Origin: Raineyella fluvialis
Lineage (GTDB): Bacteria; Actinomycetota; Actinomycetes; Propionibacteriales; Propionibacteriaceae
Reading direction: 5' to 3'
Assembly (NCBI RefSeq): GCF_009646095.1
Contig: NZ_CP045725.1
Location: 558,001 to 622,000 of the forward strand
Length of the DNA stretch: 64,000 nucleotides
Positions 57,641 to 63,870 of this stretch are shown piece after piece. Both the position numbers and the translations under genes were made by a program. The notes under the pieces are model-generated. The model was not told where the DNA came from. It was given only the letters and a program-made list of their open reading frames with translations, and searched no databases. Numbering within the stretch: the first letter of the stretch is position 1; each line of letters opens with the position of its first letter.

Positions 57641-57685
57641 GGCAGGGCTGACTCCGGCAGGGCTGACTCAGGCAGGGCTGGCTCA
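57641..57685. repeat. Three tandem 15-bp repeats
   Basis: GGCAGGGCTGACTCC, GGCAGGGCTGACTCA and GGCAGGGCTGGCTCA follow one another between two convergent genes. The third includes the stop codon of the mannosyltransferase. Confidence 0.85.
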
Positions 57686-59248
57686 GGCCGGGAGGCTGAT
57701 CCCGAAGGGCGTCCGCCACGCCGCCCGGTCGTGGCGGACCATCAGCGCCGCGTACGGCACGAGGGAGAGGACGGCGAGCCAGCCGGCCTGGTTACGGAAG
57801 GCGAGGTTGGTCGCGTAGTAGACGACCATGCCGACGGTGACCCAGACGGCCGCCCTGACCAGCCGCGGCGACGGACGGGTGGCGGGCAGCAGCAAGCCGC
57901 CCCAGAGCAGGTACCAACCATGCAGGGCCGCCCCACCGATGGCCGCGGCCAACAGACCCCAGGAGACGAAGCGGATCGGGCGATGCAGCGCGATCCGCGC
58001 GGCCATCCAGCTGATGAACGCGACGGTGCCGAGTCCGAAGACGGTCTCCACGGCCCCCGTGATCACACCACCCCACTCGTAGTAGCCCCACTGCAGCACC
58101 AGCGCGTTGACCCCCTGGGCGACCAGGCTGCTGGGCGCGATCGTGGGCACCGATCCCGGCACGGTCATCGCGTGCAGCCAGCCGAACCCGAGCCCGGTGA
58201 GCAGTGACACCGCGGCGAACGACGCCAGCGCGATCGCGGCGGTGAGAGCGGTCCGTCGCAGGATCTCCCGCCAGGCCGACCAGCGGCGGGCCTGGGACGG
58301 CAGGAACATGAACGCCACCGCCAGACCGGCGAGCGCCGCCGGCTGTTTGGCCGCGGTCGCGACACCGACCAGCACGGCGGCGGTGACGAAACGGCCCCGA
58401 CCGGCGAACCACAGGGCGAGCACCATCAGTCCCACCATCAGCGCGTCGTTGTGGGCGCCACCGACGAAGTGGACGATCATCAGCGGGTTGGCGACGGCCA
58501 GCCACATGCCCCGCTCGTGCTCGGTCCCGGTGGCACCGACGTGCCGCATCAGGGCGGGCAGGCAGGCAGCGATCAGCACCACCCCGACCAGGGCCGGCAG
58601 ACGCATGGCGACGGCCGCGACGTAGGCGTGCAGCGGGCTGCCGGCGACCGGCGCCAGGAGATGCCCACCGGTCGCGTCGACCAGTAGCCGCTGGATCTGC
58701 AGACTGAGAGGTCCGTACGGTGCGGGGGTGTAGAGCCAGACCCGGGACACGTTGTCGGCGAATGCCCCGGGCAGGGCGGCGGGGCCGACCTGGTAGGGAT
58801 CGATCCCTCGCGACACCAGCCAGCCCTGGGCGGCGTACGAATACGCGTCCTGGCTGAAGACCGGCGGGGCGAGCAGGAAGGGCGTCGACCACAACGTCAG
58901 CACGGCCCGGAAGTCGTGGCGCCCGACACCCGTGGGCCGCAGCCGCAGCCAGGCGTCGAGGACGAGCCAGATCCCGGCGAGCGCGACGAGGGAGACGAAG
59001 GTGCTGCCGACCGTGGTCCGGAGGGCAGCGCTACCCGGCACCGACCACAGCGGCGCAGCGTCAGGCAGGAAGGCGGGGCTGAGCGACCCGGCGACGACGA
59101 GGACGAGTCCGAGCAGGCCCTGGCGGACCATCGGGTCATACCACTCGGCTCGTAGCGCCGCGACGGCGTCCGCGCCCCGTACGCGCAGCGGTCGGCGGGT
59201 GCGCGTGTCCGCCGGTAGCGTCACCACGGGCATCTGTTCACCTGCCAT
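57683..59248 (-). CDS. Polyprenol-phosphate-mannose-dependent mannosyltransferase, MptB-like
   Basis: A 521-residue GT-C-fold integral membrane protein with about a dozen hydrophobic segments. The first periplasmic loop has SQDAYSYAAQGWLVSRGIDP followed by YQVGP, the acidic catalytic region typical of MptA/MptB alpha-1,6-mannosyltransferases. FVGGAHNDALMVGLMVLAL and ATAAKQPAALAGL are also typical. In actinobacteria these enzymes build mannan cores of lipomannan or lipoglycan. I chose ATG 59248 (GAAGGGAAAG upstream). It converges on the hydrolase gene. Confidence 0.8.
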   Translation of the reverse strand: MAGEQMPVVTLPADTRTRRPLRVRGADAVAALRAEWYDPMVRQGLLGLVLVVAGSLSPAFLPDAAPLWSVPGSAALRTTVGSTFVSLVALAGIWLVLDAWLRLRPTGVGRHDFRAVLTLWSTPFLLAPPVFSQDAYSYAAQGWLVSRGIDPYQVGPAALPGAFADNVSRVWLYTPAPYGPLSLQIQRLLVDATGGHLLAPVAGSPLHAYVAAVAMRLPALVGVVLIAACLPALMRHVGATGTEHERGMWLAVANPLMIVHFVGGAHNDALMVGLMVLALWFAGRGRFVTAAVLVGVATAAKQPAALAGLAVAFMFLPSQARRWSAWREILRRTALTAAIALASFAAVSLLTGLGFGWLHAMTVPGSVPTIAPSSLVAQGVNALVLQWGYYEWGGVITGAVETVFGLGTVAFISWMAARIALHRPIRFVSWGLLAAAIGGAALHGWYLLWGGLLLPATRPSPRLVRAAVWVTVGMVVYYATNLAFRNQAGWLAVLSLVPYAALMVRHDRAAWRTPFGISLPA

Positions 59249-59354
59249 CCGGATCTTTCCCTTCACGCTGCCGCCGTCGGGGGAGCACCCCACTCTGCCA
59301 GGGTAGGCGCCGGGTCAGGTTCCGGGCCAATCTTCGGGCGCTCGGGGGCGCGTG

Positions 59355-59693
59355 TCACGCCGTCGGGCGGCCCCCCGGATCGGGGGCGAGCCGGTCGCGC
59401 TGGTGCACCAGATCGGGGAGCGACGCCCCGGGCGAGACGTGCTCGCCGTTCCACTCGAGGGCGTCGAAGGGGCACTCGTCGACGCAGATGCCGCAGTACA
59501 TACAGACGGACCAGTCGATCGCGAAGCGGTCCAGCACGTTGTGCAGCCGGGGGCGACGGGAGGCCTCCGAGGCCGGATCCGGTTCGGTGTGGGCGTCGAT
59601 GCTGATGCACCAGACGGGGCACTCGCGGGCGCAGATCATGCACGAGGTGCAGCGGTCCTCGATCAGCCGGATCCGGCCATGGGTTGCGGTCAT
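59355..59693 (-). CDS. NuoI-like 2x[4Fe-4S] ferredoxin subunit
   Basis: 112 residues with two cluster motifs, C15TSCMICARECP and C64MYCGICVDECP, as in NuoI/HycF. They are separated by a 40-residue insert containing a run of polar residues, and followed by DALEWNGEHVSPG. The start ATG overlaps the stop of the NuoC-like gene (ATGA). It would carry electrons between a ferredoxin-reactive partner and the NuoB-like cluster. It could also act as a free ferredoxin for KorAB, which is divergently encoded. Confidence 0.82.
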   Translation of the reverse strand: MTATHGRIRLIEDRCTSCMICARECPVWCISIDAHTEPDPASEASRRPRLHNVLDRFAIDWSVCMYCGICVDECPFDALEWNGEHVSPGASLPDLVHQRDRLAPDPGGRPTA

Positions 59694-60262
59694 CGCCCCG
59701 CTCCCCGGTCGCGGGACCGTCGCACCCGGCCACCGGAGGTGCTGGTGGCGACGTCCTCGGGATCGGCCTGCCCGTCGGAGGGGTCGCGCTCGCCCCAGAT
59801 CGCCGGGTCGGGAACCCCGGGAGGGACCATCCGGCGGCGGGCGCGCGCCCCTTCCTCCGGCTCGTCGGCGCCGGGCCACGGCACGGCGGCGCGGGCCGCG
59901 AGCGGGTGGTCCTTCAGCAGTGGCGCCTCCGGAGCATCCGGCCCGAGCAGGAGTCGCCGGCCGTCCCCGCCACCGAAGTCGACGGCGTAGCCCTCCCCCG
60001 CCTCGCGCTCGCACCAGGCGGCCCCCGGGAAGACGCCGGCGAGACTCGCCAGCACGCCACCGCGGCGCGGTACGCGAGTGCGCAGGCGCACCGGCGCCCC
60101 GTCGCGGGCCCGCAGTTGGCAGACCACGCTCACCGTGTCGGTCCGGCCGATGTCGTCGGTCGCGTCGAGCCAGTCGAAGCGGTCGAAGCCTTCATCCCGA
60201 GCGGCGCTCACCGCCGCGACCCATGCGGCGGCCTCGACGCTGCGGGTCACCTCGTCACTCAT
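59690..60262 (-). CDS. NuoC-like (30-kDa) subunit
   Basis: 190 residues. FDWLDATDDIGRTDTVSVVC and VPRRGGVLASLAGVFPGAAW, then CEREAGEGYAVDFGGG and LLLGPDAPEAPLLKDHPL, match the NuoC/HycE-N signature (WxERExxxxxGxxFxG ... HPL). In place of the usual EMFGI it has GEGYAV. A long polar C-terminus follows. It overlaps both neighbours. It has no NuoD (catalytic large subunit) partner in the window. Confidence 0.78.
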   Translation of the reverse strand: MSDEVTRSVEAAAWVAAVSAARDEGFDRFDWLDATDDIGRTDTVSVVCQLRARDGAPVRLRTRVPRRGGVLASLAGVFPGAAWCEREAGEGYAVDFGGGDGRRLLLGPDAPEAPLLKDHPLAARAAVPWPGADEPEEGARARRRMVPPGVPDPAIWGERDPSDGQADPEDVATSTSGGRVRRSRDRGAGR

Positions 60263-60702
60263 CGTGCCTCCTCCAGGTCCGTGGCGAGACCGGCCAGGGC
60301 CTCCTCCAGCGAGCCGGGGGGTGGCGGGCACCCCGGCACGACGACGGAGACCGGGACGAACTGGGCGATGCCGTCGGCCACCGCGTACGAATCCCAGTAG
60401 GGGCCGCCCGAACTGGCGCAGGCACCGTAGGCGATCACCTGGGCAGGCCGACCGACGCGGTCCGCCAGGGCATCGATGGCCTCCCGGACCACCGGGACGA
60501 GGGCGTCCGGGACCGTGCCGGACACCACGACGGCCAACGCCTGCGGTGGTGCCGCGAGCGGGCCGGGACCGGGCGGGAGCTCGGCCTCACGGCGCGCCAG
60601 CACCGCCGCCTCGAACTCCAGGCTGCAACAGGCCAGACCGAGGTCGGCGACGAGCAATCGGCCGTCGCCGTACCAGTCGTAGACGCGTATGCCCTCTGCC
60701 AT
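60259..60702 (-). CDS. NuoB-like (20-kDa) Fe-S subunit
   Basis: 147 residues. All four ligands of the terminal N2-type [4Fe-4S] cluster are present: C25-C26 in ACCSLEFEAA, C95 in YGACASSGGPYWDSY, and C125 in VPGCPPPPGSLEEAL. VVVSGTV and GIAQFVPVSVVV are also as in NuoB. It is the first gene of a three-gene overlapping set that lacks NuoD and all membrane subunits. It is divergent from korA across 178 bp. Confidence 0.82.
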   Translation of the reverse strand: MAEGIRVYDWYGDGRLLVADLGLACCSLEFEAAVLARREAELPPGPGPLAAPPQALAVVVSGTVPDALVPVVREAIDALADRVGRPAQVIAYGACASSGGPYWDSYAVADGIAQFVPVSVVVPGCPPPPGSLEEALAGLATDLEEAR

Positions 60703-60880
60703 GACGGACAGCCTATCCGCCGGTCGCATTCCACCCCTCGGACCGCTCTGAGGCATAAGGACTTGCGCCTAGACTCATTAGAAGATCCAATAAGTGAGGC
60801 TCAGCTGACGCCGCACTAGACTTGACCGGCGGCCGGCCCCTCCTGGGCGGCCGGTACGACGAGAAACGAGGCATACCGAC

Positions 60881-62764
60881 GTGGCAGACGTCCAGATGCT
60901 CAACCGAGTGGTCATCCGCTTCGCGGGCGACTCCGGCGACGGGATGCAGCTTACCGGTGACCGGTTCACTGCGGAGGCCGCGTCGTTCGGCAACGACATC
61001 TCCACCCTGCCGAACTTCCCGGCAGAGATCCGCGCCCCCCAGGGGACCATCCCCGGGGTGTCGAGCTTCCAGGTGCACTTCGCCGACTTCGACATCATGA
61101 CCCCGGGCGACACCGCGGACGTGCTGGTGGCGATGAACCCGGCGGCCCTGAAGGCGAATCTCGCCCAGGTCAAGCGCGGCGGCCTGATCATCGCCGACAC
61201 GGCGGAGTTCACCAAGCGCAACCTGGCGAAGGTCGCCTACCCGGCCAACCCGCTCGAGGACGGTTCGCTGGACGACTACCAGTTGCACGCCCTCGACCTC
61301 ACCGGGATGACCGTCGCCGCCGTCCACGACTTCGGCCTGAGCCGCAAGGACGCCTCCCGCGCGAAGAACATGTACGCGCTGGGCCTGCTCAGCTGGCTGT
61401 ACAACCGCGACACCGAGACCACGCTGAAGTTCCTCAGCGAGAAGTTCGCCGGCAAGCCGCAGCTGCGCGACGCCAACATCACCGCCTTCCGGACCGGCTA
61501 CGCCTTCGGCGAGACGACCGAGACGTTCGGCGTCACCTACCAGGTCGCGCCGGCCCCGATGCCGGCCGGGCGCTACCGCCAGATCTCCGGCAACGTCGCA
61601 CTGGCGTACGGCCTCGTCGCCGGGGCCCAGAAGGCCGGGCTCCAGCTCTTCTTCGGCGCCTACCCGATCACCCCGGCGTCCGATGTGCTGCACACGCTGT
61701 CGAAGCTGAAGCGGTTCGACGTGATGACCTTCCAGGCCGAGGACGAGATCGCCGCCGCCGGCTCCGCCCTCGGGGCCAGCTTCGCCGGCCGGCTCGGCGT
61801 CACCGCGTCCTCCGGCCCAGGCATCGCCCTGAAGTCGGAGACGATCTCGCTGGCCGTGATGACCGAGCTGCCAATGGTGATCTGCGACGTCCAGCGATCC
61901 GGCCCCTCGACAGGCATGCCGACGAAGACCGAGCAGGCCGACCTGCTGATGGCCCTGTACGGCCGCCACGGCGAGGCCCCGGTCCCGGTGATCGCCGCCC
62001 AGTCCCCCTCGGACTGCTTCAACGCGGCGATCGAGGCCGTCCGGGTCGCGGTCGAGTACCGTACGCCGGTCTTCGTCCTCACCGACGGCTACCTCGCCAA
62101 CGGCGCCGAGCCGTGGAACGTCCCGCACCTGGACACGATCCCCGCGATCGACCCGGGCTTCGCCACCGAGCCGAACGGCCCCAAGGGTGAGTTCCTGCCC
62201 TACGTACGGGACGAGGAGACACTGGCCCGCCCGTGGGCCATCCCGGGCACGCCTGGCCTCGAGCACCGCCTCGGCGGCATCGAGAAGGACTCCCGCACCG
62301 GCAACATCTCCTACGACCCGGCCAACCACCAGCTGATGACCGACACCCGCCAGGCCAAGATCGACCGCGTCGGCCGGCTCGTCCCGCCGCTGCTGGTGGA
62401 CGATCCCGGCCGCGAGGACGGCGAGGGTGCCCGCCTGCTGGTGCTGGGCTGGGGGTCGACGTACGGCCCCGCGCTCGCCGCGATCCGCCGGATGCGCAAG
62501 ACCGGGGCCAAGGTCGCCCACGCCCAGCTGCGCTGGCTCAACCCGTTCCCGGACAACCTCGGCGACGTGTTGCGGTCGTACGACCGGGTCATCGTGCCCG
62601 AGATGAACCTCGGCCAGCTCGCCATGCTGCTCCGAGCCAAGTACCTCGTCGATGTCCGGAGCTACTCGCGGGTCCGCGGCCTGCCGATCTCCGTCGACGA
62701 ATTCGAAGCCGACCTGTTCGAGGTCCTCCGCGAGCTCGGCAGCCGGGAAGGAGTCCTCCAGTGA
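60881..62764 (+). CDS. korA: 2-oxoglutarate (2-oxoacid):ferredoxin oxidoreductase, fused gamma-alpha subunit
   Basis: 627 residues. The N-terminal gamma domain (VVIRFAGDSGDGMQLTGDRF, residues ~10-190) is joined to the alpha domain, with FFGAYPITPASDVLHTL, TFQAEDEIAAAGSALGASFA, VTASSGPGIALKSETISLAV and RSGPSTGMPTKTEQADL. This fused arrangement is typical of actinobacterial KorA. With KorB it decarboxylates 2-oxoglutarate to succinyl-CoA and reduces ferredoxin. The GTG start at 60881 gives VADVQM. The stop overlaps the korB start. Confidence 0.92.
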   Translation: MADVQMLNRVVIRFAGDSGDGMQLTGDRFTAEAASFGNDISTLPNFPAEIRAPQGTIPGVSSFQVHFADFDIMTPGDTADVLVAMNPAALKANLAQVKRGGLIIADTAEFTKRNLAKVAYPANPLEDGSLDDYQLHALDLTGMTVAAVHDFGLSRKDASRAKNMYALGLLSWLYNRDTETTLKFLSEKFAGKPQLRDANITAFRTGYAFGETTETFGVTYQVAPAPMPAGRYRQISGNVALAYGLVAGAQKAGLQLFFGAYPITPASDVLHTLSKLKRFDVMTFQAEDEIAAAGSALGASFAGRLGVTASSGPGIALKSETISLAVMTELPMVICDVQRSGPSTGMPTKTEQADLLMALYGRHGEAPVPVIAAQSPSDCFNAAIEAVRVAVEYRTPVFVLTDGYLANGAEPWNVPHLDTIPAIDPGFATEPNGPKGEFLPYVRDEETLARPWAIPGTPGLEHRLGGIEKDSRTGNISYDPANHQLMTDTRQAKIDRVGRLVPPLLVDDPGREDGEGARLLVLGWGSTYGPALAAIRRMRKTGAKVAHAQLRWLNPFPDNLGDVLRSYDRVIVPEMNLGQLAMLLRAKYLVDVRSYSRVRGLPISVDEFEADLFEVLRELGSREGVLQ

Positions 62765-63870
62765 CCGCGACGCAGAACCCCACCGAGTCGCCGGCGGCGG
62801 CCGGGTCCCGAGCCATCGGACGCGGCCTGGCGCATGTCCCGCTGGCCATCGAGCCACTCAACCGCAAGGACTTCGTCTCCGACCAGGAGGTGCGCTGGTG
62901 CCCCGGCTGCGGTGACTACGCCGTGCTCGCCGCGTTCCAGGGCTTCATGCCGGAGCTCGGGATCAAGCGCGAGAACACCGTGATCATCTCGGGGATCGGC
63001 TGCTCGTCGCGCTTCCCGTACTACGTCGACTCGTACGGGATGCACTCGATCCACGGCCGTGCCCCGGCGATCGCCACCGGCGTCGCCGCGACCCGGGAGG
63101 ACCTCGCGGTCTTCGTGATCACCGGCGACGGTGACGCCCTCTCGATCGGCGGCAACCACCTGCTGCATGCCCTGCGCCGCAACGTGAACATCACCGTCCT
63201 GCTCTTCAACAACCGGATCTACGGACTGACCAAGGGCCAGTACTCGCCCACGTCCGAGATGGGCAAGGTCACCAAGTCGACGCCGATGGGGTCGCTCGAC
63301 CAGCCGCTCAACCCGGTGTCGCTGGCACTCGGATCCGAGGCCACCTTCGTCGCCCGCGCCATCGACTCCGACCGCAAGCACCTCAGCGAGGTGCTCAAGG
63401 CGGCGGCCGCCCACCGGGGCGCCTCGCTGGTCGAGATCTACCAGAACTGCCCCATCTTCAACGACGGCGCCTTCGACGCCCTCAAGGGCGGCGAGGAGTC
63501 GGCCGAGGCGATCATCCCGCTCGTCCACGGCGAGAAGATCATCTTCGGGGTCGGCGGTCACCTGGCCGTCGTCCGCGACCGGGCCGACGGTGCGCTGCGG
63601 ATCGCCGAGCGGGACAGCGTGGCCGAGGACGACATCGTCGTCCACGACGCCCATGCCGACAACCCGTCGTACGCCTTCGCCCTGTCCCGCCTGAGCAGCG
63701 CAGGGCACCTGCAGCGCTCCCCGATCGGCGTCTTCCGCGATGTGCAGCGGCCGACGTACGACGACGAGGCCCGCGAGCAGGTCCGCACCGCCCGTGGGGA
63801 CGGCGCGGACTCCGAGGCCTCCCTGCAGGACCTGCTGTACGGGCAGGACACCTGGGAAGTCACCGCCTGA
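62761..63870 (+). CDS. korB: 2-oxoglutarate (2-oxoacid):ferredoxin oxidoreductase beta subunit
   Basis: 369 residues. Binds ThDP and one [4Fe-4S] cluster: W46CPGCGDYAVLAAF (C47, C50), GIGCSSRFPYYVDSYGMHSI, and IYQNCPIFNDGAF. The ThDP motif is ITGDGDALSIGGNHLLHALR with FNNRIYGLTKGQYSPTS. The GTG start overlaps the korA stop (GTGA), so the subunits are made together. A hairpin at 63906-63944 may terminate the operon. Confidence 0.93.
   Translation: MTATQNPTESPAAAGSRAIGRGLAHVPLAIEPLNRKDFVSDQEVRWCPGCGDYAVLAAFQGFMPELGIKRENTVIISGIGCSSRFPYYVDSYGMHSIHGRAPAIATGVAATREDLAVFVITGDGDALSIGGNHLLHALRRNVNITVLLFNNRIYGLTKGQYSPTSEMGKVTKSTPMGSLDQPLNPVSLALGSEATFVARAIDSDRKHLSEVLKAAAAHRGASLVEIYQNCPIFNDGAFDALKGGEESAEAIIPLVHGEKIIFGVGGHLAVVRDRADGALRIAERDSVAEDDIVVHDAHADNPSYAFALSRLSSAGHLQRSPIGVFRDVQRPTYDDEAREQVRTARGDGADSEASLQDLLYGQDTWEVTA

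Follow-up and report, generated by a model that had tools for sequence, protein, structure and literature searches.

Genes at the locus

The 64,000-nucleotide window analyzed here, from Raineyella fluvialis (contig NZ_CP045725.1, positions 558,001 to 622,000), contains near its end three small genes, nuoB2, nuoC2 and nuoI2, whose products resemble subunits of complex I, and, facing away from them, the korA and korB genes of a 2-oxoacid:ferredoxin oxidoreductase. Comparison with related genomes strongly supports the reading that this trio encodes three of the four subunits of a second complex I Q-module, with the fourth, NuoD2, predicted to be supplied by a gene elsewhere in the genome.

The trio genes are open frames on the minus strand, and neighbors overlap by 4 bp. 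The product of nuoB2 (60259..60702) is an N2-cluster subunit of a reduced type, without the canonical NuoB quinone- and membrane-facing loop, and matches Oxidored_q6 (PF01058) at 55.9 bits, compared to a curated cut-off of 27. The 30-kDa-like scaffold subunit encoded by nuoC2 (59690..60262) matches Complex1_30kDa (PF00329) at 60.2 bits (curated cut-off 22.5). The product of nuoI2 (59355..59693) is a ferredoxin-like subunit of the Fer4 families with two [4Fe-4S] clusters (N6a/N6b; 47.6 bits, curated cut-off 21.1) and is the presumed entry point for electrons. The top NCBIfam models were NuoB for NuoB2 (P0001), NuoC or NuoBCD for NuoC2 (P0002), and NuoI (TIGR01971) for NuoI2 (P0003). All of these matches fall below the curated cut-offs, which marks the proteins as divergent relatives rather than housekeeping subunits. 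Frames, Pfam matches and alignments confirm a preliminary description of this DNA, which had recognized overlapping NuoB-, NuoC- and NuoI-like genes that keep their Fe-S cysteines. Adjoining the trio is a 536-amino-acid frame (57683-59293, minus strand) that looks hydrophobic and has no Pfam match at an E value of 0.001.

Both KorAB subunit families, alpha/gamma and beta, are present on the plus strand. KorA (60881..62764), the alpha/gamma subunit and a frequent neighbor of the trio, matches the POR_N and POR families above the Pfam curated cut-offs and TIGR03710 at 663 bits (cut-off 483). KorB (62761..63870), the thiamine pyrophosphate (TPP)/[4Fe-4S] beta subunit, matches TPP_enzyme_C (PF02775) at 106.9 bits, above the Pfam cut-off, and TIGR02177 at 259.4 bits, 2.5 below the cut-off of 261.9. 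Direct reading bears out the divergent arrangement of nuoB2 and korA across an intergenic region of 178 bp (60703..60880).

A large subunit encoded elsewhere

The preliminary description stated that no large catalytic subunit was present and suggested looking for a stand-alone NuoD homologue. The absence holds locally, as none lies beside the trio, but not genome-wide. Two NuoD proteins of the window genome match the Pfam 49-kDa model: NuoD1, in the housekeeping operon, and the stand-alone NuoD2 (G000:C1:2186800-2187945), 1.57 Mb from the trio. NuoD2 is flanked by fol genes and clpC, and fol genes lie near it in five of the seven relatives listed (all named by eye). Among 80 named loci kept from a species-level genome collection, which partly overlap the sequences used for the residue counts below, its closest named relative is that of Raineyella antarctica (82%). 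The predicted structure of NuoD2, with a predicted local distance difference test (pLDDT) score of 85.1, matches complex I 49-kDa subunits with query template modeling (TM) scores of 0.74-0.82 for the 50 best matches. The B, C, D and I subunits, which carry the ligands of N2, N6a and N6b, are all present in the window genome.

NuoB2 and NuoD2 are inherited together. Our main sample comprised 147 genomes of the order, 50 from the family of the window genome and 97 from outside it. A second sample comprised 197 genomes of the class, in which at least 86 hold NuoD2, counting, among the matches listed, clear fragments and those extending to the C terminus. In the order, NuoB2 and NuoD2 occur in the identical 82 of 147 genomes. 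Within the family, NuoB2 is found in 32 of 50 genomes and NuoD2 in the same 32, with a frameshifted copy in one of them (G071); outside the family, by reading of the rows, 50 genomes have both and 47 have neither. Intact NuoD2 is found in none of the 18 family genomes without NuoB2. Absence is scattered within some genera of the family (g2, g3, g4 and g8) and complete in others (g6, g7, g9 and g11), implying several joint losses of two unlinked loci. Two broken NuoD2 genes read as snapshots of such joint loss. In G071 (C23:398256-399321), NuoD2 is frameshifted and NuoB2 is still there, and in G023 (C1:290570-291524), which has no NuoB2, NuoD2 is broken into two frames and the HRGxE motif is kept. 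In the class, we searched again in the 25 genomes that have NuoD2 but no strong full-type NuoB2, together with G212, and found a second NuoB match in 22 of these 26 genomes (in pieces in G151). The four exceptions are G178, with a fragment only (94% complete), G238, with none (77%), G212, which lacks NuoD2, and G322 (see below). G145 has a second, weak NuoB match.

One family genome without the trio, G131, has a cluster of NuoL-, N-, B-, H-, I- and D-like genes (L287, G131:C2:438400-444800). Its NuoD-like protein shares 30% identity with NuoD2. We took this cluster to be another complex, complex I or hydrogenase-like, and did not count its NuoD-like protein as NuoD2.

Predicted pairing of NuoB2 with NuoD2 at cluster N2

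The ligands of the iron-sulfur clusters are strictly kept. All four N2 cysteines are present in 20 of 20 NuoB2 sequences aligned, at 51 of 51 trio or nuo2 loci read and in 72 of 72 NuoB sequences overall, and the cluster cysteines of NuoI2 are kept at 49 of 49 loci. Beside N2, the two sets of proteins have exchanged an arginine. The N2-side residue of NuoD1 is Thr in 41 of 41 sequences (21 in the order and 20 across the class), compared to Arg at the same position of NuoD2 in 50 of 50 sequences, from which the frameshifted G071 copy was left out, and at all 80 named loci. NuoB1 has Arg in 21 of 21 sequences, and NuoB2 has Thr there in 51 of 51. Arg75 of NuoB1 aligns without gaps to Arg83 of Thermus Nqo6, and this Nqo6 arginine and the NDUFS2 arginine fill the same space in a published comparison (PMC8042128). 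In Yarrowia, replacing the N2-side arginine abolishes N2 (PMC8042128). A mixed NuoB/NuoD pair would carry either no arginine or two, and NuoB2 therefore looks built to pair with NuoD2 rather than with NuoD1. A large subunit encoded elsewhere had been one of two alternatives offered for the trio in the preliminary description, and it is now strongly supported by an unlinked NuoD2 that is co-inherited with NuoB2 and matches it in N2 residues.

A methyltransferase beside NuoD2

In the window genome, NuoD2 adjoins a gene for a MidA/NDUFAF7-family methyltransferase (PF02636, 31.3 bits, cut-off 23.3), and the MidA profile matches the NDUFAF7 homologue 5ztz at 2.2e-6. PF02636 was matched in 57 of the 147 genomes of the order, all 57 with NuoD2, and in none of the 65 genomes without it. 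In these 57 genomes MidA is always on the same contig as NuoD2, and it is at most 10 kb away in 56. In the class, 79 of 197 genomes match PF02636; 74 of the 79 have NuoD2 among the matches listed, 67 of them on the same contig. The five class genomes with MidA and without NuoD2 are G160, G169, G219 and G248, which are 72-80% complete assemblies, and G212 (94%). MidA lies upstream of NuoD2 on the same strand at 70 of the 80 named loci. Nine of the other ten have at most 6.2 kb of DNA upstream of NuoD2, and one, L132, has 10 kb without MidA. Some family genomes without a Pfam-detectable MidA (g10) have a weak homologue beside NuoD2.

In human complex I, NDUFAF7 dimethylates the arginine equivalent to that of NuoD2 (PMC3829151). 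Paracoccus also carries this arginine in dimethylated form; E. coli has it without the modification, and Thermus has Thr instead (PMC3750175). PF02636 is not matched in E. coli, in line with its unmodified arginine, and is matched in 3 of 14 control genomes. The window genome has both the methyltransferase domain, above its cut-off, and the putative target arginine in the partner protein. MidA is a likely maturation factor of NuoD2 and may methylate this arginine.

A fusion of MidA and NuoD2, read as a single 781-amino-acid frame, was rejected in favor of a probable one-base frameshift in a G-run, because the normal MidA end and stop codon can still be read in another frame and two close relatives have separate genes. 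At another locus (L095:4029-5504), midA and nuoD2 are separated by a gene for a polysaccharide pyruvyl transferase (PF04230), with overlaps at its ends, and a DUF885 gene follows.

Loss of the membrane arm

The trio had been described as lacking a membrane arm, and this is borne out. No membrane genes lie in the trio loci, and the window genome has a single NuoH, as do all 32 family genomes with the trio, which implies that the window genome has no second membrane arm. Its housekeeping nuo operon is located at about 629-645 kb of the contig, starting about 7 kb past the end of the window. A complete second nuo operon able to accommodate the trio had been named beforehand as evidence against a separate role; it is absent from the window genome but present in relatives. 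NuoH2 is beside NuoB2 at 14 of the 51 loci, in nuo2 sets that also have A and J-M, and not at 37. Other families have loci where A2-B2-C2-H2-I2-J2-K2-L2-M2 stand together. A Kribbella-type genome (G006, family f2) has all of these genes plus an N-like one, but in separate blocks spread over about 40 kb, and korAB marks the far end. With NuoE, NuoG and most of NuoF of the window genome as queries, tblastn gave no match at 1e-3 at the 51 loci, although it did detect the housekeeping operon with them. Judging from this gene content, the trio and NuoD2 descend from a complex that had a membrane arm of its own but lacked the NADH module, of the Streptomyces "nuo2" type.

Among the 37 reduced loci, 35 are clear and two are doubtful. 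In G204 a contig edge ends the locus, which has no NuoC2. In G236 (L279, G236:C1:5205205-5205603) a full-type NuoB2, sharing 89% identity with the query, stands alone, with no other nuo2 gene in the 10.5 kb around it (within 5 kb), and the nuo2 genes of this genome may be dispersed. The clear reduced loci are found in ten families, nine of them other than that of the window genome (f1, f8, f15, f17, f30, f31, f35, f37, f41 and f42). A FastTree tree of joined NuoB2/NuoI2/NuoD2 sequences (50 genomes, rooted at the midpoint without an outgroup) yields two changes under parsimony, and the long branches of the reduced forms may attract each other in it. Full and reduced forms stand side by side in the order of the window genome and in family f31, making further events, or gene transfer, likely.

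Decay of the quinone site and purifying selection

The residues that differ between full and reduced forms lie in the NuoB loop and the NuoD pocket, which in complex I structures face NuoH/NuoA and quinone (in part from PMC3750175). Six positions of the NuoB loop (D, R, P, R, Q and K) are kept in 14 of 14 full NuoB2 and in 20-21 of 21 NuoB1 sequences and are scattered in the reduced group, and the Trp before the first NuoB cysteines follows the same pattern. The quinone His is present in 14 of 14 full NuoD2, 21 of 21 NuoD1 and 18 of 36 reduced NuoD2 sequences, a count that leaves out G071 and includes G236, and in none of the NuoD2 sequences aligned from the family of the window genome. In the window genome the quinone pocket is lost, both at the equivalent of His38 and in the NuoB RFG/SPRQ loop. 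By simple NG86 counts against G139, the ratio of nonsynonymous to synonymous substitution rates (dN/dS) is 0.13-0.20 for the four subunits (NuoC2, 0.17; NuoI2, 0.20), compared to 0.44 for MidA and 0.11-0.12 for KorA and KorB. We read these patterns as purifying selection on the cluster cysteines and the N2 arginine together with decay of the quinone- and membrane-facing residues.

This combination bears on two alternatives. The chief rival, which we consider unlikely, is an interchangeable Q-module, in which NuoB2, NuoC2, NuoD2 and NuoI2 dock on the housekeeping membrane arm and let either NADH or ferredoxin drive the same pump. Proximity speaks for it: nuoB1 is 26 kb from nuoB2, and at several class loci the trio has, 1-3 kb upstream, genes like nuoL, nuoM and nuoN that presumably belong to nuo1. 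A hybrid nuo/nuo2 machine has been proposed for Streptomyces (PMC9239103), and half of the reduced NuoD2 sequences retain the quinone His; docking may hold in the lineages that do. However, the residues that have decayed in the reduced forms are the very ones that NuoB1 and NuoD1, and the full NuoB2 and NuoD2, keep. The second alternative is a relic, a former ferredoxin:quinone oxidoreductase that has shed its membrane arm and is itself being lost. The missing membrane genes and quinone-site residues would fit such decay, as would the broken NuoD2 of G071 and G023 and the several joint losses in the family. The low dN/dS values argue against it, as does the conservation of the N2 arginine and of the cluster cysteines in NuoB2 and NuoI2, without exception at the loci read, including reduced forms from ten families; of all the explanations weighed here, we find this one the hardest to credit.

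KorAB as a possible partner

The preliminary description tied the trio to korAB, and here the evidence is divided. KorA is a frequent neighbor: nuoB2 and korA are both in view at 29 of the 51 loci and are divergent at all 29, with a gap of 118-844 bp at 19 of the 23 that are reduced. KorA is found in 81 of 82 NuoD2 genomes of the order versus 52 of 65 others, and in 73 of 86 NuoD2 genomes of the class, among the matches listed, versus 79 of 111 others. On the other hand, KorA is present in all 18 family genomes without the trio, and at an E value of 1e-120 no KorA is seen in 13 NuoD2 genomes of the class. In genus g8 (G083, G098 and G110), korA is 7-8 kb from the trio in the same orientation. 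The only NuoD2 genome of the order without KorA at an E value of 1e-100, G064 (L075), has a full nuo2 cluster, and its source of ferredoxin must differ. We therefore rejected KorAB as an obligate partner, given the genomes that have one without the other and the g8 arrangement. KorAB is a plausible supplier of reduced ferredoxin for the trio. In tuberculosis KorAB, the feeding of electrons into redox pools was called "currently unclear" by the authors (PMC2773412).

The other alternative of the preliminary description, a soluble three-subunit shuttle dedicated to KorAB and operating with no large subunit, would account for the consistently divergent and mostly close placement of nuoB2 and korA. 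It seems highly improbable given that NuoD2 exists and is co-inherited, that KorA persists where the trio is absent, and that some NuoD2 genomes have no KorA. Joint control through the 178-bp gap, also suggested earlier, found no support either: among 18 such intergenic regions, no 8-mer is common to six or more and no 10-mer or 12-mer to four or more, and we rejected a shared promoter motif at these k-mer lengths and region minima. Several class KorA matches, among them G225:C184:4441-6291, G315 and G307, contain one in-frame stop codon (TGA; TAG in one).

A proposed soluble, ferredoxin-fed complex

Missing membrane genes and a decayed quinone site fit a soluble, ferredoxin-fed role. We consider it reasonably likely that NuoB2, NuoC2, NuoD2 and NuoI2 form a soluble complex, probably fed by ferredoxin, with an acceptor other than quinone. 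Ferredoxin is suggested as the donor by NuoI2 and by the korAB neighborhood. Reduced ferredoxin, from KorAB or another source, would pass electrons to NuoI2, and these would travel through N6a/N6b to N2 at the interface of NuoB2 and NuoD2. MidA would dimethylate the NuoD2 arginine and so help to assemble or tune N2, and the soluble complex would then deliver electrons to an acceptor other than membrane quinone. We give roughly even weight to a broader account, in which a soluble four-subunit enzyme evolved, perhaps repeatedly, from a ferredoxin-driven complex I. It would have shed the proton pump and quinone site, kept the Fe-S wire and an N2 cluster with a MidA-methylated arginine, and come to pass low-potential electrons to a non-quinone substrate, making it a candidate outlet for KorAB ferredoxin in aerobic actinobacteria. 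Alternatively, the four proteins could act as a redox sensor or regulator that reports the redox state of ferredoxin to another protein without catalytic flux, as no cofactor other than Fe-S clusters is predicted. We think this scarcely probable, since four subunits are costly for a sensor and no conserved regulator was noticed beside the trio, though its neighbors were not systematically scanned.

Several observations weigh against a soluble complex of this kind or limit its reach. We infer complex formation, donor and acceptor from sequence. The quinone His persists in 18 of 36 "reduced" NuoD2 sequences, one of which, from G236, is a full-type sequence. A Pfam-detectable MidA is missing from 25 of 82 NuoD2 genomes of the order, all of them reduced and in the family of the window genome; the arginine is kept where read, suggesting that methylation is not universal. 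The window-genome midA is itself frameshifted near its 3' end at a G-run (G000:C1 ~2187946-2189020; L006:9950-11020), probably a sequencing error or a young frameshift. KorA was not found at an E value of 1e-120 in 13 of the 86 class NuoD2 genomes, among the matches listed, and G322 (94% complete) has NuoD2 and a single NuoB match. The genome-wide count of membrane genes covers the order, and outside it their absence was read around the trio only. The 20 class loci were picked for divergent NuoB2 and are not a random sample, and, beyond the genus-level pattern, the counts are raw with respect to kinship; Fisher p values for co-occurrence, which take no account of it, were given no weight.

If correct, this would be an unusual case of a complex I stripped to its electron wire yet under selection. 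The analysis makes testable which outlet aerobic actinobacteria may have for the electrons of KorAB ferredoxin, and what the puzzling nuo2 cluster is, with the unlinked NuoD2 as its NuoD and MidA as its likely maturation factor. The bacterial role of MidA also becomes testable, as one cell contains both an N2 environment that can be methylated (NuoD2-Arg) and one that cannot (NuoD1-Thr), a natural internal control.

Comparison with known systems

In the open-licence literature, we found no paper that links bacterial MidA to NuoD2 or describes a membrane-less nuoBCI with nuoD. The membrane-less form, the MidA linkage, the exchange of the N2 arginine and the assignment of NuoD2 to the trio were not seen there. 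For Streptomyces, both the full nuo2 set and the separate location of nuoD2 have already been published.

A close parallel is this Streptomyces set, which likewise has korAB nearby. It keeps its membrane arm, unlike the system in the window genome. Streptomyces nuo2 (SCO4599-4608) is likewise a second nuo set without an NADH module, with nuoD2 apart from the cluster (PMC3765725), and MidA is not brought up in the published sections on nuo2 that we consulted. The cluster is said to lack NuoCDEFG and L, and "its function is unclear" (PMC9239103). The NuoC2 described here suggests that the NuoC of Streptomyces nuo2 was overlooked.

Other relatives share parts of the design. The 14-subunit NADH-type complex I has NuoEFG with its Q-module, and none was found at the 51 trio or nuo2 loci. 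Group 4 hydrogenases and formate hydrogenlyase have a homologous core (7z0s and 6cfw are among the matches), but NuoD2 is nearer to complex I, scoring 170.5 bits with Thermus Nqo4 compared to 87.6 and 87.5 bits with these enzymes. The 11-subunit complex I-like enzymes of Desulfitobacterium and cyanobacterial NDH-1 also have a Q-module without NuoEFG and ferredoxin as a candidate donor (PMC11238625). These are membrane-bound quinone reductases, whereas the window system lacks a membrane arm and its quinone site has decayed. Mitochondrial NDUFS2/NDUFS7 with NDUFAF7 (MidA) share the HRGxE arginine of the large subunit by N2 and a PF02636 methyltransferase. The system described here differs in being bacterial, in its putative methylation, and in forming a second copy beside a housekeeping NuoD1 of the Thermus type, with Thr in place of the arginine.

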